DNA of 64,000 nt from Kineosporia sp. NBRC 101731 (lineage in GTDB: Bacteria > Actinomycetota > Actinomycetes > Actinomycetales > Kineosporiaceae): contig NZ_BSTC01000003.1 in the NCBI RefSeq assembly GCF_030269305.1, positions 1 to 64,000 on the forward strand, given 5' to 3'. Position 1 is the first letter of the stretch, and each line of letters starts with the position of its first letter. Below, one piece after another: positions 26,514 through 44,163 of the stretch. The notes beneath the pieces are model-generated. The model worked only from the letters and a program-made list of their open reading frames with translations. It had not been told where the DNA came from and searched no databases. The translations under genes were made by a program, and so were the position numbers.

Positions 26514-28514
26514 GTGCACGAGTACCGTGAGGACGCGCTACGGGCCAGGGTTCTCGCCCGGCAGGAATGGTGTGCGCGGCATCCGGAGACCCCGGCCGAT
26601 CTCGCCCTGGCCCTGCGGGCCCGGGTGGCCGCCGAACTGGACTACCAGGACGGTACCCATGCCCGCATCCTGGCGGTGCTCGAAAAGGTTCGGGAAGTCG
26701 GTGATCCCGAGATCCTGGCGACGGTGCTGAGTCTGGCCCACCACTGCCTGCTCGGGCCGCAGCACGGTGACCTGCGCACCCGGCTGGCCGAGGAACTTCT
26801 GCTCACCGCGGGGCGCTCCGACCGACCCGGTGACGCACTGGCCGGGATGCTCTGGCTGACCGTCGACCAGTACTTGGGCGGTGACCCGCACGCCGGGCGA
26901 TCGCTCGCCCGGCTGCGGGAGGCGCTGAAACAGCACGACCATCAGGCCTTCGGCTACGCTGCCGCGGCCATCGAGGTGATGCTGGCGATCCGCGAGGGGC
27001 AACTGGACCGGGCCGAGGTGATGGCCGCCGAGTGCGCCGCGCTGGGTGAACGCTGTGGTGACGCCGACGCGAGCGGCTGGTACCGCGGGCAGCTGATCAC
27101 GATCCGCTGGTTCCAGGGCCGTCTGGGGGAGCTCCTTCCGGTGCTGAGGGCCGAGGTCGACTCGTACGCCCTCGGCGCGCAGGACGATTCGCTGTTCTCG
27201 GCGCTCGCGGTCTCGGCCGTGGCTGCCGGTGACGACCTGGTCGCGGCGGGGGCCGTGGCCCGGCTGGGTGGGCCGGGGCTGGGTAGCTGCGGGCTGAGTG
27301 CCGTCCCGGCGTCGAGTGCCTGGCTGGTGACCGTGAACGGTGCGGCCGAGGCCGCGTTCCGTCTGCAGGACAGGGAACTGGCGTCGACGGTCTACCGCCT
27401 GCTGATACCGCACCAGGACCTGCCGGTCTGCGGCAGCCTGGCCATCACCTGCTTCGGGTCGGCCCACCAGGCGCTCGGGCTGGCGGCCCTGACGGTGGGT
27501 GGCGTCCCGGCCGGGATCTACCACCTGCGCCGGGCGGTGCAAGGCAATCTGGCGCTGGGTCACTGGCCGGCCCACTGCCTTTCGCTGCACCGGCTGGGCC
27601 ACGCGCTGCTGCGGTACGGAAACTCCCAGGAGCGCAGAGAAGCCTCGGATCTGCTGGCGGCCGCCGAGCGGGAGGCCGCCCGGCTCGGGATGATCCTGCC
27701 CACTCAGCCGACCCCGATGTCCGCCCCGGCCCGAAATCCCGAACCGGCAACGACGTCCACCATGAACTCGATGAGTGAGCAAGTCCGGATCCGCCTGCTG
27801 GGAACGGCCGGGATCGTGGTGAACGGGGAGGTCCAGGTGATCCCGGGCCGGCGCCGCCGGACGGTGCTGAGCGTGCTGGCCCTGAACGCCGGTGAACTCG
27901 TCGGGGCCGATCGTCTCGTCGACATCGTCTGGGGCGAGAAGGTTCCCCGTACCGCGGCCAACACCCTGCAGAGCCACGTCTCCTACCTGCGCCGGGTACT
28001 GGGACCCGCGGCGCGCATCATCAGCCAGTCACAGGGGTACGTGCTCGACCTGCCCCGCACGGCGGTCGACGCCGGTCTGGCCGAGCACCTGATCCGGGCC
28101 CAGGGCGACGGTCCGCCGACGGCGGCCGGCGTGCGTCCCCTCACCGAGGCGCTCGCCCTCTGGCACGGAGAACCCCTGGGCGACGTGGAGAGCCACCCGT
28201 GGTTCGAGGTCCAGGCCCAGCACCTGGGGCAACTGCGGCTGCGGGGCACGAAGATGCTGGCCCGGGCGCACCTGCTGACCCGGCAGAACACCCGGGCCGT
28301 GGACCTGCTGACCCCGGCGGTGCGGGAACACCCGCTGGACGAGCAGCTGTACGAACTCCTGATGCTCGCCCACCACCGCCAGGGTCTGTCCGGCCAGGCT
28401 CTGGCCGTCTTCGAGAATGCGCGCGCAACATTGGGGTCGGAGCTGGGTGCCGATCCCAGCGGGCCGCTGCGCGAGCTGCACATCGCGATCCTCCGCCAGG
28501 ACCCGGGGCTGTAG
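26514..28514 (+). CDS. TPR-SARP transcriptional regulator, probably with damaged or non-standard 5' end
   Basis: At least 666 residues. Roughly the first 420 are TPR-like helical repeats (for example ADLALALRARVAAELDYQD, EREAARLG). After a Thr/Pro linker, a SARP module follows: an OmpR-type winged helix (IRLLGTAGIVVNGEVQV ... LVDIVWGEKVPRTAANTLQSHVSYLRRVLG) and a bacterial transcriptional activation domain ending at SGPLRELHIAILRQDPGL. In AfsR-like proteins the SARP module is at the N terminus and TPRs at the C terminus; here the order is reversed. The frame clearly continues upstream of the only available start (GTG 26514), so the gene may be frameshifted. Confidence 0.75.
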   Translation: MHEYREDALRARVLARQEWCARHPETPADLALALRARVAAELDYQDGTHARILAVLEKVREVGDPEILATVLSLAHHCLLGPQHGDLRTRLAEELLLTAGRSDRPGDALAGMLWLTVDQYLGGDPHAGRSLARLREALKQHDHQAFGYAAAAIEVMLAIREGQLDRAEVMAAECAALGERCGDADASGWYRGQLITIRWFQGRLGELLPVLRAEVDSYALGAQDDSLFSALAVSAVAAGDDLVAAGAVARLGGPGLGSCGLSAVPASSAWLVTVNGAAEAAFRLQDRELASTVYRLLIPHQDLPVCGSLAITCFGSAHQALGLAALTVGGVPAGIYHLRRAVQGNLALGHWPAHCLSLHRLGHALLRYGNSQERREASDLLAAAEREAARLGMILPTQPTPMSAPARNPEPATTSTMNSMSEQVRIRLLGTAGIVVNGEVQVIPGRRRRTVLSVLALNAGELVGADRLVDIVWGEKVPRTAANTLQSHVSYLRRVLGPAARIISQSQGYVLDLPRTAVDAGLAEHLIRAQGDGPPTAAGVRPLTEALALWHGEPLGDVESHPWFEVQAQHLGQLRLRGTKMLARAHLLTRQNTRAVDLLTPAVREHPLDEQLYELLMLAHHRQGLSGQALAVFENARATLGSELGADPSGPLRELHIAILRQDPGL

Positions 28515-28630: not shown

Positions 28631-29191
28631 ATGCGCTCTATCGTAGGTCGTTTACTCGCCGCCACCGTGCTGGTGGCCGGCGCGCTGATCCCGGCCGGGG
28701 CTGCGGCGAACGCCGCGTCATCGTCCGACGCCCCGGTGAAGCCACTGCTCAGTGGTGTCTTCAAGCAGATCAAGAACTCCGGCACCAACCTGTGCCTGGA
28801 GCCGGAGAACCAGTCCACGGCCGTGGGGGCCAATCTCGTGCAGATGCCGTGCGTGAGCAGCGGCGTCGAGGGTCAGGCCCAGGGCTGGCAGCCCCTCTAC
28901 GTCGGGAATAATCACTACAAGTTCGTGAACCAGCTCAGCGGGCTGTGCATGAGAAACCGGGCCACGACCAACGGGTCGGTCGTCCACCAGTGGGGTTGCG
29001 CCACGATCAGCGATGAGGAGTACAACACCGGTGCGACGCTGCCCGCCGTCGCCAAGATCGAGTCCCGGCTCCACTGGACGGACAGTGGCGCCTGCCTCGA
29101 CGTACCGGGCGGCCTGGCCACGATCGGTGCCCGCCTGCAGATGTACAAGTGCAACGGCACCCCGGCCCAGATCTGGGTCAACGGCTTCTGA
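28631..29191 (+). CDS. secreted ricin-type beta-trefoil lectin domain protein
   Basis: A 186-residue exported protein: a signal peptide (about 1-29, VGRLLAATVLVAGALIPAGAAANA) followed by a single RICIN/beta-trefoil domain. The repeated units NSGTNLCLEP, QLSGLCMRN and TDSGACLDVPGG with terminal QxW-like motifs (AQIWVNGF) are visible. No catalytic domain is attached. It likely binds glycans outside the cell. It is followed by a perfect terminator hairpin and converges on the SMP-30 gene. Confidence 0.85.
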   Translation: MRSIVGRLLAATVLVAGALIPAGAAANAASSSDAPVKPLLSGVFKQIKNSGTNLCLEPENQSTAVGANLVQMPCVSSGVEGQAQGWQPLYVGNNHYKFVNQLSGLCMRNRATTNGSVVHQWGCATISDEEYNTGATLPAVAKIESRLHWTDSGACLDVPGGLATIGARLQMYKCNGTPAQIWVNGF

Positions 29192-32511: not shown

Positions 32512-33102
32512 TCAGGCGGCTGACAGCACCGCCACGATGAAGTCCGAGTCCGGTGCGAACGGGCGCAGGTCCCAGGTGCTCAGCAGGAGCTCGGCGACCA
32601 GGTCGGCCCGGTTCGCGTCGCCGAGGAAGTCGTCGAACTCGTAGCCACGACCGGCTCCGAAACCGATGACGACGCGTCCGCCCGGTAGCAGATGCCGACG
32701 GAAACGCCGCAGGATCTCGCCCCGGGTGGAGGGGGCGCAGAACGTCATCACGTTGCCGGCGCAGACGATCACGTCGAAGGCGGTGCCGGGCAGGTCGAGC
32801 TCGGAGAGGTCGCCGACGAGCCAGGTCGGGCCCTGGTGGTCGTCCTCGGCGGCGGTGATGAGGGTCGGGTCGATGTCCACCCCGATCACCTCGTGGCCCT
32901 GCCCCGCCAGATACCCACCGAGCCGGCCCGGACCACAGCCCGCGTCGAGAATCTTCGATCCCCGCGGCACCATCGCGTCGATCATCCGGCCCTCACCGTC
33001 GAGATCGGCGCCCTGCTCCGCCATGGCCCGGAAACGGTCGATGTACCACTGGGAATGACTGGGATCGTCTTCCACCCGGCGTAGCCAGAGGTTCTCCTGC
33101 AT
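32512..33102 (-). CDS. class I SAM-dependent methyltransferase
   Basis: A 196-residue methyltransferase. Motif I is ILDAGCGPGRLGGYLA, followed by the acidic strand end VIGVDIDPTL, motif II VGDLSELDLPG and post-II VIVCAGNVMTF. It begins MQENLWLRRVEDDPSHSQWYIDRF, a form widespread in actinomycetes with unknown substrate. Start ATG 33102 has AGAGGTGG ahead; a longer open frame upstream has no site. It converges on the dehydrogenase operon. Nothing ties it to lipid methylation. Confidence 0.85.
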   Translation of the reverse strand: MQENLWLRRVEDDPSHSQWYIDRFRAMAEQGADLDGEGRMIDAMVPRGSKILDAGCGPGRLGGYLAGQGHEVIGVDIDPTLITAAEDDHQGPTWLVGDLSELDLPGTAFDVIVCAGNVMTFCAPSTRGEILRRFRRHLLPGGRVVIGFGAGRGYEFDDFLGDANRADLVAELLLSTWDLRPFAPDSDFIVAVLSAA

Positions 33103-33169
33103 GCCCGTTCCACCTCTGTTGTCACTCGATACCTGACGTCTGAAGGGCATCCTAGAGGGGAGCAGACGG

Positions 33170-33721: not shown

Positions 33722-36043
33722 TTACAGCACCTGCACCGTGCCTGTCGTGGCCCGGCCGTCGCGCTGTGAGGGCACCAGCACGCCGTCACCGTCGGCCGCG
33801 ATGGCGGTGAGGGTCCAGACGTAGGTGCCCGGCACGCGGTTCCCGCTGCGACGCCGGCCGTCCCATCGCAGATCTCGCACGCTGCCGGACCCGGTGTCGC
33901 TGCCGTGCAGGTACTGGATCGTCCGGCCGCGGGGATCAGTGATCTTCAGACGGACGTCCCGGAGCGGCTTGGTGGCGTCGAACTGCGGTCGCCAGATGGC
34001 CCCGGAACGTATCCGGGGCCCCGCCAGCGTTCCGAAAAGCCTTGGCCGGTAACGGTGAGGGAAGAGGAGCTGGGCATCGACACGGGACTTCCGGTCGGGG
34101 TCGTACGTCTCCCGGGCGACCGCACCGTCATCCACACTGATCCGGTCGATCCGGCCCGGCAGTCTCACCGGTTCCGCGTGCGGGTCGGTGAGGTCGAGCA
34201 CCCGGCCGTCGTAGAAACCGTTGACCCAGCCCAGCATGCCTTCGGCCAGGGTGATGTTGATCCGCGTCGCCCCGCTCCTCGCCCCGACCGGGACCTTCCG
34301 CTCCGCGCCCGTCCTCAGATTCTTCACCACGATCACCCTGGACCGGCAGTTCACCCAGGCGACGGTGTCCGCCCAGATCGCCACCTGCTGCTGGTCGCTG
34401 CACACCCCTGCCTGTGGACCGCGGAGCCGTCGTGGACGTGGGTGCCGGGCATCGTCCAGCCAGACGCTGTTGCCGACCGAGCCGAAGGCGCCCTGGTCGA
34501 TTCGGGTGTAGACGAGGGTCGAGCCGAACAGGTCGATCGAGTCGATCGACAGGTGGTCCTCGGGGCGGTAGAGAACTGTTCCGTCGGGCCGGTAGACGAT
34601 GCCCTGGACCGCCGCGAATGGGCCGGAGAGGTTGACGTTGCCACCCCATCCCTCGATGCGCCCGGTGACGGCCGTGCCGTCGAACAGGCGGGTGCTGTCA
34701 CTGAGGCGATCGGGTGGTGACGGGTCGTTGAGCACGCTGCGACCGGCGGACACCGCGAACTGGGGTGTCAGGCTGTAGGCATACCCGCTCATCGGGACCG
34801 GGAACTGCTTCTCCGCGGTGAGGCGCACCGGTGACCGGCCGGACATCTTCCGCGACCACAGAGTTTGACCGACCGTGCCGGCCAGTGAGTCGTCGGCCCA
34901 GTACAGGCGCCCGGCGTTGAGCGTGGGGTCGGTCTGGGGGAAGCCGTAGGCGGGGACGGTCGCGGTGCGCGTGACCCTACCGTCGGGGGCGACCGCGTAC
35001 ACGCCCGCGGTGCGGGAGTCGCCCCCGACCGCGGTGAGGAACCGGTCTCCCACGGCGGCCAGTCCTCGGCTGCCGGCCGGGACCTCCACCGAGCGGACGT
35101 CGTCGCCGTCGGCCACCCGTAGGAAGGTGTGGTGGTCGGCCGAGGCCAGGTAGGCGACACCGCCGTCCCCGCTCACCAGGGAGGGTTCTACGGAACTCGC
35201 CGGGTCCGGGCCCGGTACGGCCGAGCTGCTCACCTCACCTCCGTGCAGGCCCCGACGGTGGAGCATGGCCGTCCCCGGGTCGGCCTGGGTGAGCCAGGCG
35301 ACCTGCCCGGCCCCGACGGCGACCTGGACGACCGGATCAGCGGGATCGGCGATCGTGCGGCGCGAGCCGTCCGCGAGGGAGATCAGGTCGACGTGGTGTG
35401 CGGAATCCTCGTCCGTCCAGCCCTCCACCACGTACCCGTCGCCGGGGGCGAGGATCCGGCCGCCGTGCAGCCGGCCGAGATCGCGGCCGCCCAGCGACGG
35501 CGGGTCGGTGTTCAGCGGAGTGTCCTCGAACAGCCGGGCATCAGTGATCGGGGTGACGGAACTGCCGGCGGCCTGGGTGCTCAGCCAATGGTCCCCGACC
35601 ACGGCCAGGGGCTCACCGATCGCGCCGGCCAGGACATCGTCACCGGTGCGCAGATGCATCCGGTGGGCCTCGTAACCGTATTTCGGGATCTGTGACGTCA
35701 CCCAGGCCAGGGACGATCCTCCGACACCGACCAGCCGCAGCGACATGTTGTGTCTCGCCTCGCCGAAGGTACGGGCGGTGAGCCGGGATCCCTCGACCCC
35801 GGTGAGAACCGTCCCGACGCCCCAGCTCTCCTGCGCGGTGCCCTGTTCGACCGCCACACCCCCGGCGGAGGCGCCGATGAGCCGGAGGGAGGTCGCCAGG
35901 GTGTGTTCCGGTACTGATACCGGCCCTGGGATTGGCTCTGGGACCGGCCCGGCAGCGGCCGCGGCCGGACCGGCGGTGATGGTCACCAGCGCCAAGGCGA
36001 ATCCGGCCACACCGGACGAACACCGAAAAATGCTGTCCAGCAT
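33722..36043 (-). CDS. large secreted beta-propeller-like protein with a FlgD-type C-terminal domain
   Basis: A 773-residue exported protein. A signal peptide ends near ITAGPAAAAA, followed by a Pro-rich stretch. The body consists of repeated blade-like segments (for example VAYLASADHHTFLRVADGD, AVAPDGRVTRTATVPAYG, LFDGTAVTGRIEGWGG), suggesting a beta-propeller. The last 90 residues (LKITDPRGRTIQYLHG ... GTYVWTLTAIAADGDG) resemble FlgD/Ig-like sorting or adhesion domains. ATG 36043 has GGGGGAA ahead. It is divergent from the lanthipeptide operon, and the 211-bp gap holds the SARP repeat array. Role unknown. Confidence 0.75.
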   Translation of the reverse strand: MLDSIFRCSSGVAGFALALVTITAGPAAAAAGPVPEPIPGPVSVPEHTLATSLRLIGASAGGVAVEQGTAQESWGVGTVLTGVEGSRLTARTFGEARHNMSLRLVGVGGSSLAWVTSQIPKYGYEAHRMHLRTGDDVLAGAIGEPLAVVGDHWLSTQAAGSSVTPITDARLFEDTPLNTDPPSLGGRDLGRLHGGRILAPGDGYVVEGWTDEDSAHHVDLISLADGSRRTIADPADPVVQVAVGAGQVAWLTQADPGTAMLHRRGLHGGEVSSSAVPGPDPASSVEPSLVSGDGGVAYLASADHHTFLRVADGDDVRSVEVPAGSRGLAAVGDRFLTAVGGDSRTAGVYAVAPDGRVTRTATVPAYGFPQTDPTLNAGRLYWADDSLAGTVGQTLWSRKMSGRSPVRLTAEKQFPVPMSGYAYSLTPQFAVSAGRSVLNDPSPPDRLSDSTRLFDGTAVTGRIEGWGGNVNLSGPFAAVQGIVYRPDGTVLYRPEDHLSIDSIDLFGSTLVYTRIDQGAFGSVGNSVWLDDARHPRPRRLRGPQAGVCSDQQQVAIWADTVAWVNCRSRVIVVKNLRTGAERKVPVGARSGATRINITLAEGMLGWVNGFYDGRVLDLTDPHAEPVRLPGRIDRISVDDGAVARETYDPDRKSRVDAQLLFPHRYRPRLFGTLAGPRIRSGAIWRPQFDATKPLRDVRLKITDPRGRTIQYLHGSDTGSGSVRDLRWDGRRRSGNRVPGTYVWTLTAIAADGDGVLVPSQRDGRATTGTVQVL

Positions 36044-36131
36044 GATGTTCCCCCCGTTGTTGAGGTCGGACCCTAGCCCGGGCGTCGCTGCCCGGTCAAA
36101 GTTCGGGATCAATGGACGCCCTCTGGCCTGC

Positions 36132-36197
36132 GGTGACGCAGTGGTGAGAGCGAAGTGAAAGTCGAGTGAAAGAGGAGTGAAAGACGCCGGGCATAGC
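36132..36197 (+). promoter_or_regulatory. SARP-type operator array and -10 of the lanthipeptide operon
   Basis: Five direct repeats start at 36132, 36143, 36154, 36165 and 36176, each exactly 11 bp apart: GGTGACGC, GGTGAGAG, then three identical AGTGAAAG. The last ends at 36183, and a -10-like CATAGC begins 8 bp later at 36192. Direct heptamers with 11-bp pitch ending 8 bp before the -10 are the known arrangement of SARP binding sites (as for ActII-ORF4 and DnrI). A SARP is encoded at 43001-43753. The first gene starts at 36255. Confidence 0.8.
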
Positions 36198-36254
36198 GTC
36201 GTGGGTGTCAGCGAGGAACGGACCGGACGAGGAACGGACCGGAGAGGGAGCGTC

Positions 36255-36611
36255 ATGAAGCACTCGGAGTTTCCGGTGATCTACCCCGAGGTCGACACCA
36301 TTCGCCAGGTCCAGGAACTGCTGATCCTGGCCTCGGCGCTGCGCCCGGACGGCGAGCTGGCCGGGGCGCTGCGGGTGGCTCTCGACGTTCCGGGGCATTG
36401 CGTGAGCAGCCGGATGGAGCCGGTGACCGACATTCATCCGCACACCCTCAAGTACTGGCTGGAAAAGCTCTGGATGTCCGGCGACCTCGGCCCGGCCGAG
36501 CGGCGCCTCGTGGAGTTCCAGAACACCAGCGACAACATGGTCGCCGCGACCCGTGAGCTGCTCGATTTCGAGCGTGACTCCGGATTCCGGCTGGTGGCCG
36601 AAAAGGTCTAG
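36255..36611 (+). CDS. cinorf7: Cinorf7/DurN-like lysinoalanine-forming protein
   Basis: A 118-residue protein, first gene of the lanthipeptide operon. In cinnamycin and duramycin clusters a protein of about this size (Cinorf7, DurN) directly precedes the precursor gene and promotes the lysinoalanine cross-link between Ser6-derived dehydroalanine and Lys19. Size, position and composition fit: a small helical protein (VDTIRQVQELLILASALRPDG, LKYWLEKLWMSGDL, MVAATRELLDFERDSGF). The ATG at 36255 has GGAGAGGGAG ahead; a start 26 codons upstream would lie inside the SARP array. Assignment rests on context and general resemblance. Confidence 0.8.
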   Translation: MKHSEFPVIYPEVDTIRQVQELLILASALRPDGELAGALRVALDVPGHCVSSRMEPVTDIHPHTLKYWLEKLWMSGDLGPAERRLVEFQNTSDNMVAATRELLDFERDSGFRLVAEKV

Positions 36612-36668
36612 CCGCCAGAGCGGTTAGTAAGAAGAGCACGATCCGCACACCATCGAGGAGGCACCATC

Positions 36669-36905
36669 GTGAACACCACGCTTCTCCAGCAGGCCGCTGT
36701 CGACAGCGAGTTCCGCGCCCTCATCGAGGCCGACCCCACCCGGTTCGGGGTCACCGGCGCCACGTTGCCGGCCGAGGTCGAGGCACCGGACCAGGAATCG
36801 CTGGACTTCTTCACCGAGGGAGTTTCCTCCCTGGAGATCTACGCCTGCGAGTCCTCGTGCAGCTTCGGTCCGTTCACCATCGTGTGTGACGGCGGAACCA
36901 AGTAG
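36669..36905 (+). CDS. cinA: cinnamycin/duramycin-type lanthipeptide precursor
   Basis: A 78-residue precursor, the same length as cinnamycin CinA, with a 59-residue leader ending SLEIYA and a 19-residue core CESSCSFGPFTIVCDGGTK. Cinnamycin is CRQSCSFGPFTFVCDGNTK. Cys1, Ser4, Cys5, Ser6, Thr11, Cys14, Asp15, Thr18 and Lys19 are all kept, so rings 1-18, 4-14 and 5-11, the 6-19 lysinoalanine and hydroxy-Asp15 can form. Changes are Glu2, Ser3, Ile12 and Gly17. The leader ends in an AxA-like site (IYA), as in cinnamycin (AFA), consistent with cleavage by a general signal peptidase. The GTG start has GAGGAGG 8 nt ahead. Confidence 0.95.
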   Translation: MNTTLLQQAAVDSEFRALIEADPTRFGVTGATLPAEVEAPDQESLDFFTEGVSSLEIYACESSCSFGPFTIVCDGGTK

Positions 36906-36925
36906 GTCGCACCCCCGGATCTCCT

Positions 36926-36960
36926 GGTGGGCCGGTCGTCCCCACGGCGACCGGCCCACC
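36926..36960 (+). terminator. hairpin between precursor and LanM genes
   Basis: A perfect 13-bp stem (36926-36938 with 36948-36960) with a 9-nt loop lies 20 bp after the precursor stop and 68 bp before the LanM start. It could act as a leaky terminator or 3' stabiliser giving more precursor mRNA than synthetase mRNA. Confidence 0.65.
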
Positions 36961-37028
36961 GGGGGCCACCTCGTCCTTCCGGCCACGCGTACCGGCCACA
37001 CCTACCGTCCGCATCAGGAGGGCTGATC

Positions 37029-40000
37029 ATGACCAGCACCGTGGTCCGCGACGAAACCGTCACGGGCAGTGCCCCTTCGCTCCGGCTGGCGGCGCGCGCG
37101 GCCAATCTGGCCGAGCGCACCGCCGTGGTCCGGCAGCTGGAACGCCAGGGTCGTCTGCCCGGCGCGCAGGAGGTGCCGCCCGCCGATGCCTTCCAGACCT
37201 GGCGCAACGAGCGCACAGCGGGGAAACTCGCGGACAAGTTCGGCCAGGAGGCCCTTCACCGTAACCACCCGCCGCGTCACACGAAGGACGACATCGCCCA
37301 CATCCTTGAGTTCTACCGGCGTTTCGAGGAAACCCTGGCCCTGGAGGAACACCCGGGCGATCAGGCGGAATATCTGGAACACCTGCAGGAGAGCTGGCTG
37401 CCGACCTACCGCGCCGCCCTGCACGGCTATGTTCCCCCCGCCACCAAGCGGTACGACCGTCTGGCGGTCGCCTGCGCACCGTTCCTGGAGCTGCTGGAGA
37501 CCGAACTGAGGGCCGAGGTGGCCCTGGCCGGAACGGACTTCGCGCCCCAGGTGGTCGAGGAGCTCGGCCACCACCTGCTCGGCCGGTTCGAGCTCGCCGT
37601 GGCCTGGGCTCTGGAGGCCGAGGCCAACGTGCACCTCAGCCGGACCGGCCAGAAGCCCGAAACAGGCGACTACCTGGCCTTCCTGGACGCCACCTTCCGC
37701 GACGAGAGCGCCTACCACGAGTTCTATCTGCGTTTCCCGGTGCTGGGACGCTGGCTCGCCGAGGCCACCGGCCTGGCCCTGCAGACCGGGCGTGACCTCA
37801 TCACCCGGCTCGACGCCGACGGGGACCTGCTCGCGATCGAGCGGGTCACCGCCGTGCGTCCCGGGAAGTCCGACTACCACGCCGGGGGCCGCACGGTCGT
37901 CATGGTCGAGGTGGAGACGGCCCAGGGCCCCACGTCGTACGTCTACAAGCCGCGCGACATCAGCGCCGAGGCCGCCGTGCAGAAGCTCCTCGGGATCCTG
38001 AGCGCCGAGGCGGGCACCGGATCGGCCGGGCGCCGCGTGTGGCTGCGGCCCGGGTACGGCTACGAGGAGATGATCCCGGCCGGCCGCAACCACGTCGAGA
38101 CCTTGGAGCAGGCCCGGCAGGTCTACCGCGACCTGGGTGCGCACCTGGCGACGTTCTACGTGCTCGGCGGCACCGACCTGCACCTGGAGAACATCATCGT
38201 CGCCGACGGCCACGCCCACGTGTGCGACTGCGAGACGGTACTCGGGGTGCTGCCGACCGGTCAGAGCCGTCCGGCGGGAACGCTTCTCGACTCGGTGTTC
38301 AAGACTGCCCTGCTGGAGTGGCCGAGCTCGAAGCAGGGCGAGGGCACGATGCGGATCAGTGGGTACGCCGGGGGCGAGGCCTACGAGATGCCCGTGCCGG
38401 TGGCCACGGTCAACGACACCACGCTGAGTTTCGAGGCCGGGGTGCGGCACCGGGCCGGGATCCGGGTGGAACCGGATGCGGCGAACCGGGTCTTCCTCAA
38501 CGGTGAGCTGGTGCGGCCCGAAGACCACGTGGCCGACATCATCGAGGGTTTCGGGCAGGTCTACGCCTGGTTCGAGGCCGATCCGAAGCGCACGGCCGGT
38601 CTGGTGCGGGAGCTCTTCGGCCGGGCGCCGATCCGGTTCATCAACTGGGGCACCCAGATCTACAGCCAGCTGCTGATGGCCTCGCGGCACCCGCGCTGCC
38701 TGACCGACCCGCTCGAGGTGGACTGGCTCTTCAACACGATGCGCACGTTCCCCCGCACCTGGGACGCCGACGGTGTGCTGGCCGACCGGGAATTGCGCTC
38801 GATGTGGCGGCTCGACGTGCCCATCTTCACCGCCCCGGCCGATGCCGCCCACCTGGTGCACGACCACGACGAGCGCCTGGACAGCCCGCTCGACGCCAGC
38901 CCGGCCGAGTTCGCCGCCGGGCGCATCGCCCGTCTGGACCGGGCGAACCGCGAGCAGCAGCACCGGTACATCGCCGCGAGCCTGTCCGCCGCCGAGATCA
39001 GCAACCCCGACTTCGTGGAGACCTGCCTCGACCACGCCGCCCGCATCGGTGAGCACCTGTGCGAGCAGCTGCGGCCCGACGATGCGCCGGCTCCCTGGGA
39101 GTCGTGGGACACCAGCCGGGACATCGACGGCGACCAGGGCATGGCCCGGGTCGACGTGGAGGCCGATCTTTATCTCGGTTCTGCCGGGATCGCGCTGTTC
39201 CTGGCCCATCTCGACGCCGCCCGGCCCGACCCGCGCTTCCGCGCCGCCGCCCGCCGGGGCCTGGACCACGCGCTGCGGGAGGTCGACCTGACCCGGCCCG
39301 GCGCCTTCCAGGGCGTGGGCGGGCTCGTCTACCTGCTCAACCACCTGGGAAAGCTGTGGGACGACGCGTCGCTCACCGCGACGGCCCGGGAGTTCCTGCC
39401 GCGCCTGGCCCATCTGGCCGAGATCCACGACTCGAACGACATTCTCACCGGCCGGGCCGGCCTGGTGCCGGTGCTGCTCGGCCTCGCCCCCGATCCGTCC
39501 GACGTGAGTGATCCGGCCGTGGCCCTGGCCCACCGGTGCGGCGAACTCCTGCTGGACCGGGCCGTGGAAGGTGACCACGACGTCCTCAGTTGGCCCCTGA
39601 CCGAACCCGACGAAGCGACCGGCAACCTGACCGGATTCGCCCACGGCGCCGGGGGTATCGGGTGGGCCCTGATCCTGCTGGGCACCACCGCCGGTCGGGA
39701 CGACTGGACCGCGGCGGGTCGGCGGGCATTTGCCTACGAGGCGAGCCATTACGACGGCGACGTACAGGACTGGTACGACCTGCGCCGGCGGGGCGGGGGC
39801 GTGCAGAAGAACGGCCGCCACTACGCGAACGCCTGGTGCAACGGCGCCGCCGGTATCGGCCTGAGCCGGATCTCGGCCTGGCACCTGCTGGGAGGTGACG
39901 ACGAGCTGATGCTGCGCGAGGCCCATCAGGGGCTGGCCGCCACCCTGCGCAACCTCACCCAGCTGCGCAACGACACGCTCTGCCACGGCAGGTCGGGGAA

Positions 40001-40247
40001 TGCCGAGCTGCTGCTGCGTTTCGCCCTGCTGAAAGAGGAGCCGGCGTTCCAGCTGGAGGCCAATGTGCAGGTGCAGAGCCTGTGGCGCAGCGTCGACGAG
40101 GCGCTGGCCGGAACCGCCGAGGGCACCGCCGGATTCTTCCCGGGGCTCATGCTCGGGCTCTCCGGGTTCGGTCTGCACCTGCTGCGGCTGGCCCGTCCCG
40201 ATCAGGTGCCCTCGGTCCTGCTGCTCGACCCCCCTAACGACCTCTGA
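37029..40247 (+). CDS. cinM: class II lanthipeptide synthetase LanM
   Basis: A 1072-residue bifunctional enzyme that dehydrates Ser/Thr of the precursor and forms the thioether rings. The N-terminal dehydratase (DUF4135-type kinase-like) has TSYVYKPRDISAEAAV, GYGYEEMIPAGRNH and the GGTDLHLENIIVADGHAHV block with Asp and His near residues 383 and 385. The C-terminal LanC-like cyclase has zinc ligands in NAWCNGAAGIGLSR (Cys near 937) and TLCHGRSGNAELL (Cys and His near 985-986). Length is close to CinM. The ATG at 37029 has AGGAGGG 6 nt ahead; an in-frame earlier start lacks a site. Confidence 0.95.
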   Translation: MTSTVVRDETVTGSAPSLRLAARAANLAERTAVVRQLERQGRLPGAQEVPPADAFQTWRNERTAGKLADKFGQEALHRNHPPRHTKDDIAHILEFYRRFEETLALEEHPGDQAEYLEHLQESWLPTYRAALHGYVPPATKRYDRLAVACAPFLELLETELRAEVALAGTDFAPQVVEELGHHLLGRFELAVAWALEAEANVHLSRTGQKPETGDYLAFLDATFRDESAYHEFYLRFPVLGRWLAEATGLALQTGRDLITRLDADGDLLAIERVTAVRPGKSDYHAGGRTVVMVEVETAQGPTSYVYKPRDISAEAAVQKLLGILSAEAGTGSAGRRVWLRPGYGYEEMIPAGRNHVETLEQARQVYRDLGAHLATFYVLGGTDLHLENIIVADGHAHVCDCETVLGVLPTGQSRPAGTLLDSVFKTALLEWPSSKQGEGTMRISGYAGGEAYEMPVPVATVNDTTLSFEAGVRHRAGIRVEPDAANRVFLNGELVRPEDHVADIIEGFGQVYAWFEADPKRTAGLVRELFGRAPIRFINWGTQIYSQLLMASRHPRCLTDPLEVDWLFNTMRTFPRTWDADGVLADRELRSMWRLDVPIFTAPADAAHLVHDHDERLDSPLDASPAEFAAGRIARLDRANREQQHRYIAASLSAAEISNPDFVETCLDHAARIGEHLCEQLRPDDAPAPWESWDTSRDIDGDQGMARVDVEADLYLGSAGIALFLAHLDAARPDPRFRAAARRGLDHALREVDLTRPGAFQGVGGLVYLLNHLGKLWDDASLTATAREFLPRLAHLAEIHDSNDILTGRAGLVPVLLGLAPDPSDVSDPAVALAHRCGELLLDRAVEGDHDVLSWPLTEPDEATGNLTGFAHGAGGIGWALILLGTTAGRDDWTAAGRRAFAYEASHYDGDVQDWYDLRRRGGGVQKNGRHYANAWCNGAAGIGLSRISAWHLLGGDDELMLREAHQGLAATLRNLTQLRNDTLCHGRSGNAELLLRFALLKEEPAFQLEANVQVQSLWRSVDEALAGTAEGTAGFFPGLMLGLSGFGLHLLRLARPDQVPSVLLLDPPNDL

Positions 40248-40272
40248 AAGAACCGATGGAAGGAGAACCCTC

Positions 40273-41184
40273 ATGTCCGTCCACGCGTCCGAGGCATTCC
40301 TCCGGGTCATGCACGACACCCCCGAGGTGGCCCAGCAGCTGAAGGCGACCACCGGCATCCAGGAGGTGGTCAGGCTGGGGCACCGGCACGGGTTTGATTT
40401 CACCGAGGGCGATTTCCGCGAGGCATCGACGGTCTTCCGCCCCTCCGGAGCGGCGTCCGCCCCGGTGAAGTCCCTCTCCAAGCCGAGGAACACGACCTTC
40501 CTGCACCACGAGTACAGTCTGGACGAGGTGGAGGGGTTCGAGCCGGTCCTGGCCGAACTGCCGCGGCTGAAGGTGAAGCCACCGACGGTCGACCTGGCCG
40601 AGTTCGACCGCAGCTACCGGCCCGACGACGCCTCGTCCACCAACCGCTCGCCCTCCGACCCGGCCTACCAGGAGTGGCACCGGGCGATGAAGCAGGGGAG
40701 CTGGCTGGACCCGGAAGGTGTGAAGCGTCAGGTGCGCCGCGACTTCCACCTCGTGAACCTCGACGAGACCATCGAGTACCCTGGCTACGACGCCTACTTC
40801 GACGCGAAGACCCGCACCGTGGCGGCGCTGGAGAAACTCTTCGGCACCGAGATCCGGTTTTCCGGCAGCATGTGGTACCCGCCGCACAGCTACCGCCTCT
40901 GGCACACCAACGAGGACCAGCCCGGTTGGCGGATGTACGTGGTCGACGTGGACCGGCCGTTCGAGAACGGGCACGACACGTCGTTCTTCCGCTACCAGAA
41001 CCCGCAGACCGGCCAGATCGTCACCCTGCACGAGAAGCCGCGTATCGTCAGGTTCTTCAAGGCCGAGCAGGATCCCGACCGGTTGTTCTGGCACTGCATC
41101 GTCAACCCGACCGACCGGCACCGCTGGAGTTTCGGGTTCGTGGTGCCCGACGACTGGCAGGACAAGATCCGGATCCGGTCATGA
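40273..41184 (+). CDS. cinX: CinX-type Fe(II)/2-oxoglutarate Asp hydroxylase with Nif11-like N terminus
   Basis: A 303-residue protein in the position of CinX/DurX, which beta-hydroxylate Asp15 of the core. The C-terminal half has an iron-oxygenase look: YRLWHTNEDQPGWRMYVVD with a candidate metal-binding His near residue 211, a second His in LFWHCIVNP near 274, and a following RHRWSF that could bind 2-oxoglutarate. The first 50 residues (SEAFLRVMHDTPEV ... EVVRLGHRHGFDFTEGDF) closely follow the Nif11-like leader pattern. ATG 40273 has AGGAGAACCC ahead. The stop overlaps the transporter ATG as ATGA. Confidence 0.85.
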   Translation: MSVHASEAFLRVMHDTPEVAQQLKATTGIQEVVRLGHRHGFDFTEGDFREASTVFRPSGAASAPVKSLSKPRNTTFLHHEYSLDEVEGFEPVLAELPRLKVKPPTVDLAEFDRSYRPDDASSTNRSPSDPAYQEWHRAMKQGSWLDPEGVKRQVRRDFHLVNLDETIEYPGYDAYFDAKTRTVAALEKLFGTEIRFSGSMWYPPHSYRLWHTNEDQPGWRMYVVDVDRPFENGHDTSFFRYQNPQTGQIVTLHEKPRIVRFFKAEQDPDRLFWHCIVNPTDRHRWSFGFVVPDDWQDKIRIRS

Positions 41185-42119
41185 CGAGCGCACCGGCCGT
41201 CGAGGCCCGGGACGTGTACAAGAGTTACCCGGGTGTCGACGCGGTGCGCGGTCTGGACCTGACCGTCGGGCAGGGGGAGTTCTTCGGCTTCCTCGGCCCG
41301 AACGGGGCCGGTAAGTCGACGACGATCTCGATGCTGTGCACGCTGGTGCGCCCGACCCGCGGCCGCATCGAGATCGCCGGGCACGACACGCAGAAGGTGC
41401 CCGACCGCGTCCGTAGGCAACTGGGTCTGGTCTTCCAGGAAGACACGCTGGACGGCGAGCTGACGGCGGGTGAGAACCTGCGGTTCCACGCCGACCTCTA
41501 CGCACTGCCCCGGGTCGGCCTGCGCGAGCAGATCGAGGCCAAGCTCGCCCTGGTCGGTCTGCGCGAACGCCGCGACAGCCTGGTCCGCACCTTCTCGGGA
41601 GGCATGCGACGGCGGCTGGAGATCGCCCGGGGCCTGCTGCACCGGCCCCGGGTGCTCTTCCTCGACGAGCCCACCGTCGGGCTGGACCCGCAGTCGCGCA
41701 ACGGCATCTGGGAGCACCTGCGCGCCGCCCGCCGCCAGGAGGGCACCACGCTCTTCCTCACCACGCACTACCTGGACGAGGCCGAGCAGTGCGACCGGAT
41801 CGCGATCATCGACGGCGGGCGGATCGTGGCCCAGGGCACCCCCGACGAGCTGAAGGCGGTCATCGGGGCGGCCCGGATCGGGCTGCGGACCGGGGACGAC
41901 CGGGCGGCGGCCCGGACCCTGCGGGAGAAGTTCGGTCTGGAGGCGGATCCGGTGGACGACGGGCAGGGTCTGCGGTTCCGGGCGAAGGACGGCGCCCGCC
42001 TGGTGCCGCGGCTGTGCGCCGGGCTCGACGTCCCGGTCTTCGAGGTCACCGTGACCCGGCCCAGTCTGGACGACGTGTTCCTGCACCACACCGGCCGCAC
42101 CATCCGGGAGGAGGGCTGA
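41181..42119 (+). CDS. cinT: ABC transporter ATP-binding protein, DrrA/CinT type
   Basis: A 312-residue ATPase. Walker A is GPNGAGKSTT, the Q-loop is LVFQEDTLDGELTAGENL, the signature is TFSGGMRRRLEIARGL, and Walker B is VLFLDEPTVGLDPQ, followed by the switch His in FLTTHYLDEAEQ. The C-terminal extension is like DrrA (daunorubicin-type exporters). It overlaps cinX by 4 bp and is followed directly by the permease gene. It probably exports the lanthipeptide and may contribute to self-protection. Confidence 0.93.
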   Translation: MTSAPAVEARDVYKSYPGVDAVRGLDLTVGQGEFFGFLGPNGAGKSTTISMLCTLVRPTRGRIEIAGHDTQKVPDRVRRQLGLVFQEDTLDGELTAGENLRFHADLYALPRVGLREQIEAKLALVGLRERRDSLVRTFSGGMRRRLEIARGLLHRPRVLFLDEPTVGLDPQSRNGIWEHLRAARRQEGTTLFLTTHYLDEAEQCDRIAIIDGGRIVAQGTPDELKAVIGAARIGLRTGDDRAAARTLREKFGLEADPVDDGQGLRFRAKDGARLVPRLCAGLDVPVFEVTVTRPSLDDVFLHHTGRTIREEG

Positions 42120-42120
42120 C

Positions 42121-42999
42121 ATGAGCGTGATCACGAGGGTCGCGGAGCCGACGGAGTACGCCGGGCCCGGCGTCCGGGAACGGGTGCGGCAGGAGCTGCG
42201 GGCCGGGTGGATGGTCTGGCGCCGCGAGATGCTGCACCTGCTGCGTGACCGCACCCGGGTGGTGATGTCGCTGTTGCAGCCGTTCCTGTTCCTGCTCGTG
42301 CTCGGCGTCGGGCTGTCCCGGCTGATCGACTCGGTCGGGACCGCACCGGGCGCCGGGCCCGCCTACCTGGTGTTCCTGTTCCCGGGCGTGCTGGTGATGG
42401 CCGTGCAGGCCCCGGCCGTCTCGGTCGGGGCGTCGATCGTCTGGGACCGGCAGAGCGGTTTCCTGCGGGAGATGCTCGTGGCCCCGGTGCGCCGCAGCAC
42501 CCTGCTCATCGGCAAGTGCCTGGGCGGGGCCACGGTGGCGGCCGTGCAGGGGGCGGTGGTGCTGGTCGTGGCCGGTGTGGTCGGCGTCCCCTACCGGCTC
42601 GACCTGTTCCTGCTGCTGTTTGCCGAACTGCTGCTGGCCTCGCTGGTGATGACGGCGCTGGGTGCCGTGGTGGCCGTGACCATCCAGCGGATGGCCACCT
42701 TCCATACGGTGCTGGGCGCGCTGATCACCCCGGTGCTGTTCCTGTCCGGCGCGATGTTCCCGCTGGCCTCGATGCCGGCCTGGATGGCGGCCCTGGCCGT
42801 GCTGAACCCGCTGACCTACGTCATCGACGTGATGCGCCGCACCGTCGGGGCCTTCACCACCACCGACGGCACCCCGCTGGCCGGGCCGGTGACCTGGGCG
42901 GGCCGGGAACTGCCGGTGGCGCTGGAGGTCGGGCTGGTGGTGGGCTTCGTGGTGGTGCTGCTGGGCGTGGCCGTGCGCCGGTTCTCCCGGGCCGAATAG
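42121..42999 (+). CDS. cinH: ABC transporter permease, ABC-2/DrrB/CinH type
   Basis: A 292-residue permease with six hydrophobic segments (for example SLLQPFLFLLVLGVGLS, AYLVFLFPGVLVMAVQAPAVS, GAVVLVVAGVVGVPY, LLASLVMTALGAVVAVTI). The FLREMLVAPVRRSTLLIGKCLGG segment is the ABC-2 signature also seen in DrrB. GGAGGAGGG precedes the ATG, one base after the ATPase stop. It is the last gene of the lanthipeptide operon; the SARP gene converges on it with a single base between stops. Confidence 0.93.
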   Translation: MSVITRVAEPTEYAGPGVRERVRQELRAGWMVWRREMLHLLRDRTRVVMSLLQPFLFLLVLGVGLSRLIDSVGTAPGAGPAYLVFLFPGVLVMAVQAPAVSVGASIVWDRQSGFLREMLVAPVRRSTLLIGKCLGGATVAAVQGAVVLVVAGVVGVPYRLDLFLLLFAELLLASLVMTALGAVVAVTIQRMATFHTVLGALITPVLFLSGAMFPLASMPAWMAALAVLNPLTYVIDVMRRTVGAFTTTDGTPLAGPVTWAGRELPVALEVGLVVGFVVVLLGVAVRRFSRAE

Positions 43000-43000
43000 C

Positions 43001-43753
43001 TCAGGGTTCCTCGCTGCGCAGGATCGCCAGGTGCAGCTGCTGCAGGTCGACCCCCGGATCGACGCCGAACTCGTTGCGCAGCTGGTTCTTGAGGCGCCCG
43101 TAGGCCTGGAGTGCCTCCACCTTCCGCCCTCCGCGGTAGAGGGCCAGCATCAGCTGGCGCCACAGCCGCTCGCGGTACCGGTGGCGGCCGGTGAGTGCCT
43201 TGAGCTCGGCCACCACGTCGTCGTGGTGGCCGAGCTCGATGTGCACGTCGTTGCGCCGCTCCACCACCTGGAGCCGTTCTTCCTGCAGCGTCGGCACCAC
43301 GTCGCGGTGCAGCGAGTCGCTGGCGACCCCCGACAGCACCGGGCCCTGCCACAGACCCAGGGCCTCGTCGAGCAGGTGCGACTCGGTGTCGAGGTCATGA
43401 CACCGGTCGGCCCGCTCGGCCTGGGCCGACAGCTCGCGGAACCGCAGCAGGTCCAGCTCGGCCGCGTCGGTCGTGATCAGGTAGCCCCCGGCGGCCGTCT
43501 CGAGCTTCGGCATCGGGTCGAGGGTCTGCCGCAGCCGGGTGACGTAGGTGTGCAACGCCGCCCGGGGGCGCTGGGGAGGTTTCGACCCCCACACCCGGTC
43601 GACGATCTCGTCCACCGACACCACCCGGTTCGGGTTCAGCAGCAGGGTGGCCAGCAGCGTGCGCTGCCGGCCGGCCGGTACCTCGATCCGCCGCGTGCCC
43701 ACCCTCACGTCCAGCGGCCCGAGAACCGCGTACCGACGGGTGTCGTCCGTCAT
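43001..43753 (-). CDS. cinR1: SARP-family activator, CinR1-like
   Basis: A 250-residue small SARP. An N-terminal OmpR-type winged helix (YAVLGPLDVRVGTRRIEVPAGRQRT split over the first strands; VDEIVDRVWGSKPPQRPRAALHTYVTRLRQTLD) is followed by the activation domain (LDLLRFRELSAQAERA ... QALQAYGRLKNQLRNEFGVDPG). Cinnamycin is controlled by the SARP CinR1. Gene position at the cluster end and the 11-bp repeat array before the first biosynthetic gene support a direct activator role. ATG 43753 has a GGTGGGGG-type site; an ATG four codons upstream is possible. Confidence 0.92.
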   Translation of the reverse strand: MTDDTRRYAVLGPLDVRVGTRRIEVPAGRQRTLLATLLLNPNRVVSVDEIVDRVWGSKPPQRPRAALHTYVTRLRQTLDPMPKLETAAGGYLITTDAAELDLLRFRELSAQAERADRCHDLDTESHLLDEALGLWQGPVLSGVASDSLHRDVVPTLQEERLQVVERRNDVHIELGHHDDVVAELKALTGRHRYRERLWRQLMLALYRGGRKVEALQAYGRLKNQLRNEFGVDPGVDLQQLHLAILRSEEP

Positions 43754-44163
43754 TGATGCCCCCACCCCGTGTGCGACTCAGATATCAGTGACCCGCCGGT
43801 CTCCCCACGCGGCGGGACTGAATGGTGACCCGGTCGCCCACGTTAACGGATATCGACCGCACGGCAATTCGGCAGCGATCTTTATCTTCACGAACTAGTC
43901 ACGAGGACAAGCAGTTTCGCGGTTTTCACCATGCGTCAGGTGTCGGGCGAAAGACTCCTGGTTTCATTGAAACTGCTGGTGGGCGGCTATTCCCGGACTG
44001 TCCCGAATGTTTCCGGGGAGTATTTCGGGACGGTGAACGGAGCGGTTGTCCGGTACCTACTCCCGCGTTTTCATGAGTTCGGTCCTCACGGAATCCTCAT
44101 GATCGGTCCTCCAGTGTCTTCCCGCCGGGGTGAAAGGATCGCCTCCGGTGGGAGAGGACCGTC
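43754..44163. promoter_or_regulatory. region upstream of the SARP gene
   Basis: This 410-bp non-coding stretch is visibly less GC-rich than its surroundings. It contains the perfect palindrome GTTTCATTGAAAC (43961-43973), the palindrome CGTTAACG (about 43841) and a 7-bp-stem hairpin (44001-44007 with 44024-44030). The SARP promoter must be here. An 84-codon open frame across 43822-44076 has no site and no protein-like composition. Confidence 0.5.

Follow-up and report, generated by a model that had tools for sequence, protein, structure and literature searches.

A cinnamycin-type lanthipeptide cluster with a new core sequence in Kineosporia sp. NBRC 101731, and the probable basis of its producer's immunity

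A 64,000-nucleotide stretch of the Kineosporia sp. NBRC 101731 genome (hereafter the window) encodes a short precursor peptide resembling that of cinnamycin. The locus raises two questions: how new the peptide is, and how its producer would survive a product that binds phosphatidylethanolamine (PE). We consider it likely that the locus is a vertically inherited cinnamycin-type class II cluster, that its product binds PE, and that the producer is immune since it makes no PE.

A complete cluster and its predicted product

The precursor gene, cinA, lies on the forward strand at 36669-36905 and starts with GTG, 10 bases downstream of GAGGAGG. An earlier note on this DNA read it as a 78-residue cinnamycin-family precursor, and the translation, two family models and the cluster setting all agree: the protein scores 94.6 bits against the Pfam DurB-like family PF19398 (cut-off 26.6) and 102.3 bits against the NCBIfam model cinnamycin_RiPP NF033431 (cut-off 35). 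It is not a chance ORF, because it is flanked by a DurN homologue and a LanM gene and scores far above the cut-offs of both models. Alignment with the family divides it into a 59-residue leader (36669-36845) and the 19-residue core CESSCSFGPFTIVCDGGTK (36846-36902), and the AYA that precedes the core is probably a cleavage site of the A-x-A type.

The core fits the family pattern (C1, S/T4, C5, S6, G8, T11, C14, D15, G16, T/S18 and K19), which was checked by an alignment of 11 precursors and a table of 13 cores. As the note also held, every cross-link residue is present in the translation (C1, S4, C5, S6, T11, C14, D15, T18 and K19), and F7, G8, P9, F10, T11, V13, C14 and D15 are identical to those of cinnamycin. 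These features support the assignment of the predicted peptide to the cinnamycin family (class II, type B lanthipeptides) as an ordinary member with a new core. The mature peptide with three thioethers, a lysinoalanine and a hydroxy-Asp (four dehydrations, one hydroxylation) would have a computed [M+2H]2+ of 941.384; the value would be 933.386 without the hydroxyl and 932.379 with Ser3 dehydrated too. For duramycin the same calculation yields 1006.9262, in agreement with the published value.

The gene belongs to a cinN-A-M-X-T-H cluster that is complete (36255-42999) and adjoins a gene for a SARP regulator. The first gene, cinN (36255-36611, forward), encodes a homologue of DurN (PF19375, 110 bits, cut-off 23.9) that also matches the lysinoalanine synthase in PDB 6c0g (96 bits, E 1.6e-26), and is predicted to form the Ser6-Lys19 bridge. 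Beyond cinA, cinM (37029-40247, forward) encodes a class II lanthipeptide synthetase with DUF4135 and LANC_like domains (TIGR03897, 480 bits, cut-off 304), presumably responsible for dehydration and thioether formation. The product of cinX (40273-41184, forward) is 44-81% identical to nine CinX proteins of other clusters and, by this homology, a putative Asp15 beta-hydroxylase. Export could depend on cinT (41181-42119, forward; ABC transporter ATPase, PF00005) and cinH (42121-42999, forward; ABC-2 permease, PF01061), whose products are 66-76% and 45-76% identical to CinT and CinH, respectively, in seven of the nine loci compared. The SARP activator, a cinR1 homologue (43001-43765, reverse; BTAD, PF03704), is convergent with the cluster; it is 50% identical to the SARP of Streptomyces cinnamoneus and 81% to that of a congener (G005).

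Gene order N-A-M-X(-T-H) is identical across the 11 loci compared, S. cinnamoneus included. T and H are absent from the fetched stretch at L028, L029 and L085, and in the metagenome-assembled genome (MAG) BP_184 N-A and M-X-T-H lie on separate scaffolds (L004, L024). The SARP gene has a different location in L025, L026 and L084, and none was found in the fetched stretches of L023, L024, L027, L028, L029 and L085. The cinnamycin locus resembles this one in gene order, cross-link residues, SARP and TGAAAG-type upstream repeats, and the kyamicin locus of Saccharopolyspora, as tabulated in PMC6974636 (Table 1), is a similarly compact N-A-M-X-T-H cluster with a SARP.

About 100 bp before cinN, three AGTGAAAG repeats with 11-bp spacing (36154-36183, forward) form a probable SARP binding site; SARP sites have been reported before durN and kyaN (PMC6974636). 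The congener has AGTGAAAG twice plus CCTGAAAG in its upstream region, and S. cinnamoneus has TGAAAGCG, TGAAACCG and TGAAAGCG. Upstream regions of 8 of the 12 clusters were examined for such repeats. The best repeat score was reached in none of 500 single-base shuffles for the window, the congener and S. cinnamoneus, in 2 of 500 for the MAG (where the repeat has another sequence) and in 3 of 500 for Marinactinospora thermotolerans; upstream of L023, L025 and L027 nothing was seen, the best score being reached in 135 to 189 of 500 shuffles. A perfect 16-bp tandem duplication, CGAGGAACGGACCGGA (36212-36243), ends 11 bases before the cinN start.

In the pathway that we propose, the SARP would bind the TGAAAG repeats and turn on the cinNAMX operon. 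CinM would then dehydrate Ser4, Ser6, Thr11 and Thr18 and make the three thioethers, CinX would hydroxylate Asp15, and CinN would couple Dha6 to Lys19. After cleavage of the leader behind AYA, TH would export the 19-mer, which would bind PE in the membranes of competitors. Formation of the thioethers, of hydroxy-Asp15 and of the lysinoalanine is reported for homologues of CinM, CinX and CinN (PMC6974636), and lysinoalanine is reported to be required for activity (PMC5408092).

CinX residues 1-55 (40273-40437) form a Nif11 domain (PF07862), known from RiPP leader peptides and here fused to the hydroxylase. It exceeds the Pfam cut-off in all six CinX proteins scanned from different clusters, only just in S. 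cinnamoneus, and is possibly a docking domain. The CinX profile matches a Nif11 protein, PDB 9zn4 (E 2e-4). In the structural model, residues 1-50 are helices at pLDDT 85-91 and the rest is poor; a fold search against the PDB with this model (mean pLDDT 67) returned nothing at E<=0.001. Outside the cluster, an 844-residue ORF (33722-36256, reverse; the longest reading, with a true start that probably makes it shorter) lies between a hemerythrin gene and cinN, has only a below-cut-off FlgD_ig match, and is missing at that place in the congener. Farther upstream are a gene for a protein with a ricin-B-type lectin domain and a signal-like N-terminus (28631-29191) and, preceding it, a 666-residue ORF (26514-28514) whose C-terminal part looks SARP-like by eye.

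Immunity and membrane lipids

In S. cinnamoneus, self-protection is reported to be methylation of its own PE by Cinorf10/CinL (PMC5408092). Our CinL query was the 236-residue S. cinnamoneus ORF of L022, which matches the length given in Table 1 of PMC6974636; this ORF and the CinK, CinR and CinY/CinZ-like ORFs were assigned from their position, length and neighbouring genes rather than taken from an annotated record. Across the whole window genome no CinL homologue was found at E<=1e-3 (43 candidates scored), and the congener G005 has only a 22-bit partial match. CinL, CinK, CinR, CinY and CinZ, as assigned, have no match within the 64-kb window, which is the scope of the search for CinK and CinR. 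The congener has a CinK-like stretch about 4 kb beyond cinN (L072 7508-8209; 42% over 242 residues). The kyamicin cluster retains KyaR and KyaK together with the immunity gene KyaL, in contrast to the window genome with no detected CinL homologue.

The PE pathway was judged by two markers, phosphatidylserine decarboxylase (Psd, PF02666) and phosphatidylserine synthase (PssA, TIGR00473). Psd was found in none of the six genomes that represent the genus, one of which consists of a single contig; the same search detected it in S. cinnamoneus, in 12 of 23 genomes overall (two of them duplicates) and in three of five genomes from other genera of the family. The best PssA match in the window genome reaches 38.5 bits (cut-off 107) and is a homologue of phosphatidylcholine (PC) synthase (E 4e-55, 187 bits), which matches five NCBIfam PC-synthase models, all below their equivalog cut-offs. 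Table 3 of PMC7472656 gives the polar lipids of Kineosporia as PC, DPG, PI and PIM, without PE, at 69-71% GC; the window genome has 69.5% GC and 8.3 Mb. The producer is thus probably immune because it makes no PE, and would need no immunity gene: cinL may be missing because there is nothing to protect. Its membrane probably contains PC made directly from choline instead.

One alternative, which we regard as unlikely, is that the product binds PE and that immunity comes from another gene, either the TH transporter or a class I methyltransferase gene at 32512-33108. ABC transporters often serve lantibiotic immunity, and the methyltransferase gene lies about 3 kb upstream of the cluster; in the congener its distance from cinN is 0.7 kb. 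Against this, no Psd was detected in the genus, and comparison with CinL gives no match to the methyltransferase at E<=1e-3. We rejected the methyltransferase as the immunity gene since it is present in the five other genomes of the genus (74-97% identity), four of them without the precursor.

Absence of PE as the source of immunity can be examined across 12 cluster-bearing genomes, in which two entries of the class survey (G518, G594) that share coordinates with G014 and G015 were counted once. Near-full-length CinL-like proteins (41-100% identity) are present in five, namely S. cinnamoneus, Nocardiopsis trehalosi, M. thermotolerans, MAG BP_184 and G731, and all five also have Psd with an adjoining PssA gene, over the cut-off in four and at 103 of the 107 bits in G731. 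No near-full-length CinL was seen in the remaining seven; four of them have short or weak matches (E 1.5e-4 to 4e-4, 22-24 bits), which we read as generic methyltransferases. PF02666 occurs in six of the 12 (G013, G014, G015, G016, G731 and G711) and was not found in the window genome (G000), G005, G017, G018, G020 and G021. The exception to the pairing is thus G711, whose PF02666 protein (1.8e-35) is in our judgement not a lipid Psd, because it carries a PSDC domain and PssA matches in the genome do not exceed 25.2 bits.

The association between CinL and the PE pathway has a Fisher P of 0.0013 if G711 is taken as lacking PE and of 6/792 = 0.0076 if it is taken as making it; after the non-independent genomes are grouped into seven lineages, P is 0.029. 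In a tree of CinM and CinX, members of the two classes are intermingled, and deep branches are weak (several have support of 39 to 85). The cluster and the CinL-like gene lie on different contigs in the three Nocardiopsidaceae-like producers, and a further genome, G586, with no cinA, M, N or X in the 14 kb fetched, also has a CinL-like gene. For both reasons the gene may be a housekeeping lipid gene in these organisms; G586 alone provides the background for how often PE-making non-producers have such a gene. There is an internal TGA in the M. thermotolerans copy.

On balance we favour the existence of two classes of producer: those that make PE and have a CinL-type methyltransferase, and those without decarboxylase-route PE and without CinL, in which absence of the target would be an alternative form of self-immunity and the core would be free to diversify at seven non-scaffold positions. 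The second class would comprise this genus, two Actinomadura species, two Oscillatoria and, on our reading of its decarboxylase, G711. No statement of such a dichotomy was found in the part of the literature on the family that was covered. If the lipid argument is true, it provides a simple rule for telling which hosts could harbour or express these clusters in the absence of the methyltransferase, and a directly testable prediction on the membrane lipids of producers.

Inheritance of the cluster

The precursor is present in two of six genomes of the genus and two of 13 of the family. It was found in two of 396 genomes in a survey of the order and in six of 394 in a survey of the class, five of these over the family cut-off; both surveys are samples, and the window genome is counted throughout. 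A plasmid search gave no match, and none of 70 pattern matches in viral contigs was confirmed. Two Oscillatoria (cyanobacteria) carry cinN-A-M-X sets (L029 1351-7676 and L028 10538-16535).

In the congener G005, the cluster adjoins the same methyltransferase and hemerythrin genes as in the window. Recent horizontal arrival was considered and rejected: cluster DNA is 77.8% identical between the two genomes, like the matching flank (75.7-78.8%); the other flank has no match in the fetched stretch. The nearest relative, G003, has flanks that are 86-95% identical (90 and 92% beside the gap), and about 100 bp there replaces the 10.9 kb that hold the cluster; the alignment ends inside the hemerythrin gene. 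Descent with later loss fits these observations best.

The replacement in G003 also lends something to the idea that this strain has a silent or decaying cluster, as does the report that no kyamicin-cluster product was seen in the wild-type isolates until the cluster was activated (PMC6974636). We think this improbable: the reading frames of the window cluster are uninterrupted and similar in length to their counterparts for kyamicin, cinnamycin and duramycin, SARP-type repeats are present, and cross-link residues are conserved while the free positions vary.

That variation is seen in comparison with the congener, which shares genus and gene order with the window. The leaders agree at 52 of 59 residues, one difference being only GTG versus ATG at the start. 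The congener core, CQTSCSWGPITAICDGTTK, is identical to that of the window at 12 of 19 positions and differs at 2, 3, 7, 10, 12, 13 and 17, which are all seven non-scaffold positions. Changed residues are thus relatively more frequent in the core (7/19) than in the leader (7/59, start codon counted; Fisher P 0.034). NG86 gives dN/dS of 0.37/0.42 for the core and 0.064/0.37 for the leader, LWL85 gives a core dS of 1.13, and YN00 gives no value for the core; the estimates depend on the method, and the case for positive selection on the core is weak.

The core among its relatives

Twelve other cores were compared with that of the window, drawn from a strict pattern scan of genome contigs, the congener, the class survey and a second precursor of Oscillatoria princeps. 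The strict scan returned nine stretches, eight of them real; the ninth (L007) is a chance frame match in a genome without CinX. The pattern misses cores with Trp7, such as that of the congener. Across the 13 cores, C1, C5, S6, G8, T11, C14, D15, G16 and K19 are invariant. The nearest to the window core are those of MAG BP_184 and Actinomadura oligospora (16/19 shared), and cinnamycin shares 15 of 19 residues, differing at 2, 3, 12 and 17.

The earlier note had presented the core as new on account of Glu2, Ser3, Ile12 and Gly17, taking residue 2 as basic and Asn17 as constant in the family. Neither premise holds. Position 2 is Arg in three of the 13 cores, Glu, Ala and Ser in two each, and Gln, Val, Gly and Lys in one each, so that it is basic in only four. 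A basic residue 2 is also missing in duramycin C and ancovenin. Position 17 is Thr in six, Asn and Ser in two each, and Gly, Ala and Asp in one each. Ile12 is found in eight of the 12 other cores, where it is the commonest residue (all 13: Ile in nine, Phe in two, Ala and Val in one each). At position 3, which is Ser in four cores, Thr in four, Gln and Ala in two each and Asn in one, Ser also occurs in N. trehalosi, M. thermotolerans and A. oligospora. Ser3 is indeed an additional dehydratable residue beside Ser4, as the note held, but it is not new, since Ser3 or Thr3 adjoins Ser4 or Thr4 in eight of the 13. Glu2 and Ser3 occur together in the N. trehalosi core, CESTCSFGPFTFVCDGTSK, which unlike that of the window has Thr4, Phe12, Thr17 and Ser18, in a genome with Psd and PssA. 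Judged by these cores, the novelty would lie only in Gly17 and in the combination of residues.

No identical core is among the 12 compared, and a full-text search for core strings, the exact core included, matched a single paper, which contains only CSFGPFT; figures and most subscription papers fall outside the scope of a full-text search, and this is weak evidence of absence. Coerumycin of Actinomadura coerulea is described as the product of a cluster of five genes, one for a transporter and the others homologous to Cinorf7, CinA, CinM and CinX (PMC12837462). Its motif CxxxCSxGPFTxxCDGxTK is common to the window core, the comparison being at the level of the motif, and it has Thr4 where the window has Ser4. 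In that paper, the word 'immunity' occurs only in the reference list. With the window peptide, the number of natural cores grows by one in a small family that has a clinical history, duramycin being reported to have reached phase II trials (PMC6974636).

It had further been proposed that the peptide is more acidic and possibly shifted in selectivity. The first is arithmetically true, with a formal net charge of -1 against +1 for cinnamycin, yet the N. trehalosi core also has -1. For the second we find no support. The peptide is reported to surround the PE head group with hydroxy-Asp15 and the backbone atoms of residues 10-13 (PMC8183687); in the window core the head-group residues are kept except for Phe12, which is Ile, and nothing obviously removes the reported contacts. 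A functionally shifted member, in which Glu2, Ser3 and Gly17 alter lipid selectivity or the ring pattern (for instance through a Ser3-Cys14 bridge or through dehydration of Ser3 as a fifth residue), is therefore the least probable of the readings considered and quite doubtful: the charge, the adjoining Ser3 and Ser4, and the divergence of the two congeners at all seven free positions, where some pressure may act, are set against the precedents for Ser3 and Glu2-Ser3 above and the agreement with cinnamycin at positions 7-11 and 13-15.

Some relatives depart further from the common core. The second precursor of O. princeps has the core CGATCSVGVITIVCDGATK, without Phe7, Pro9 and Phe10. In G586, a short ORF ending in CIRTCISGWTIRCDGATF (L083 6663-6929) lies beside cinT/cinH-like genes, with no match to cinM, cinN or cinX in the 14 kb fetched, and we take it for a relic or an unrelated derivative. 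In the precursor of G711 (L085 4130-4339), the core CKTTCSSGPITIVCDGNTK is preceded by GRD and not by an A-x-A site, and a different protease may therefore remove the leader.
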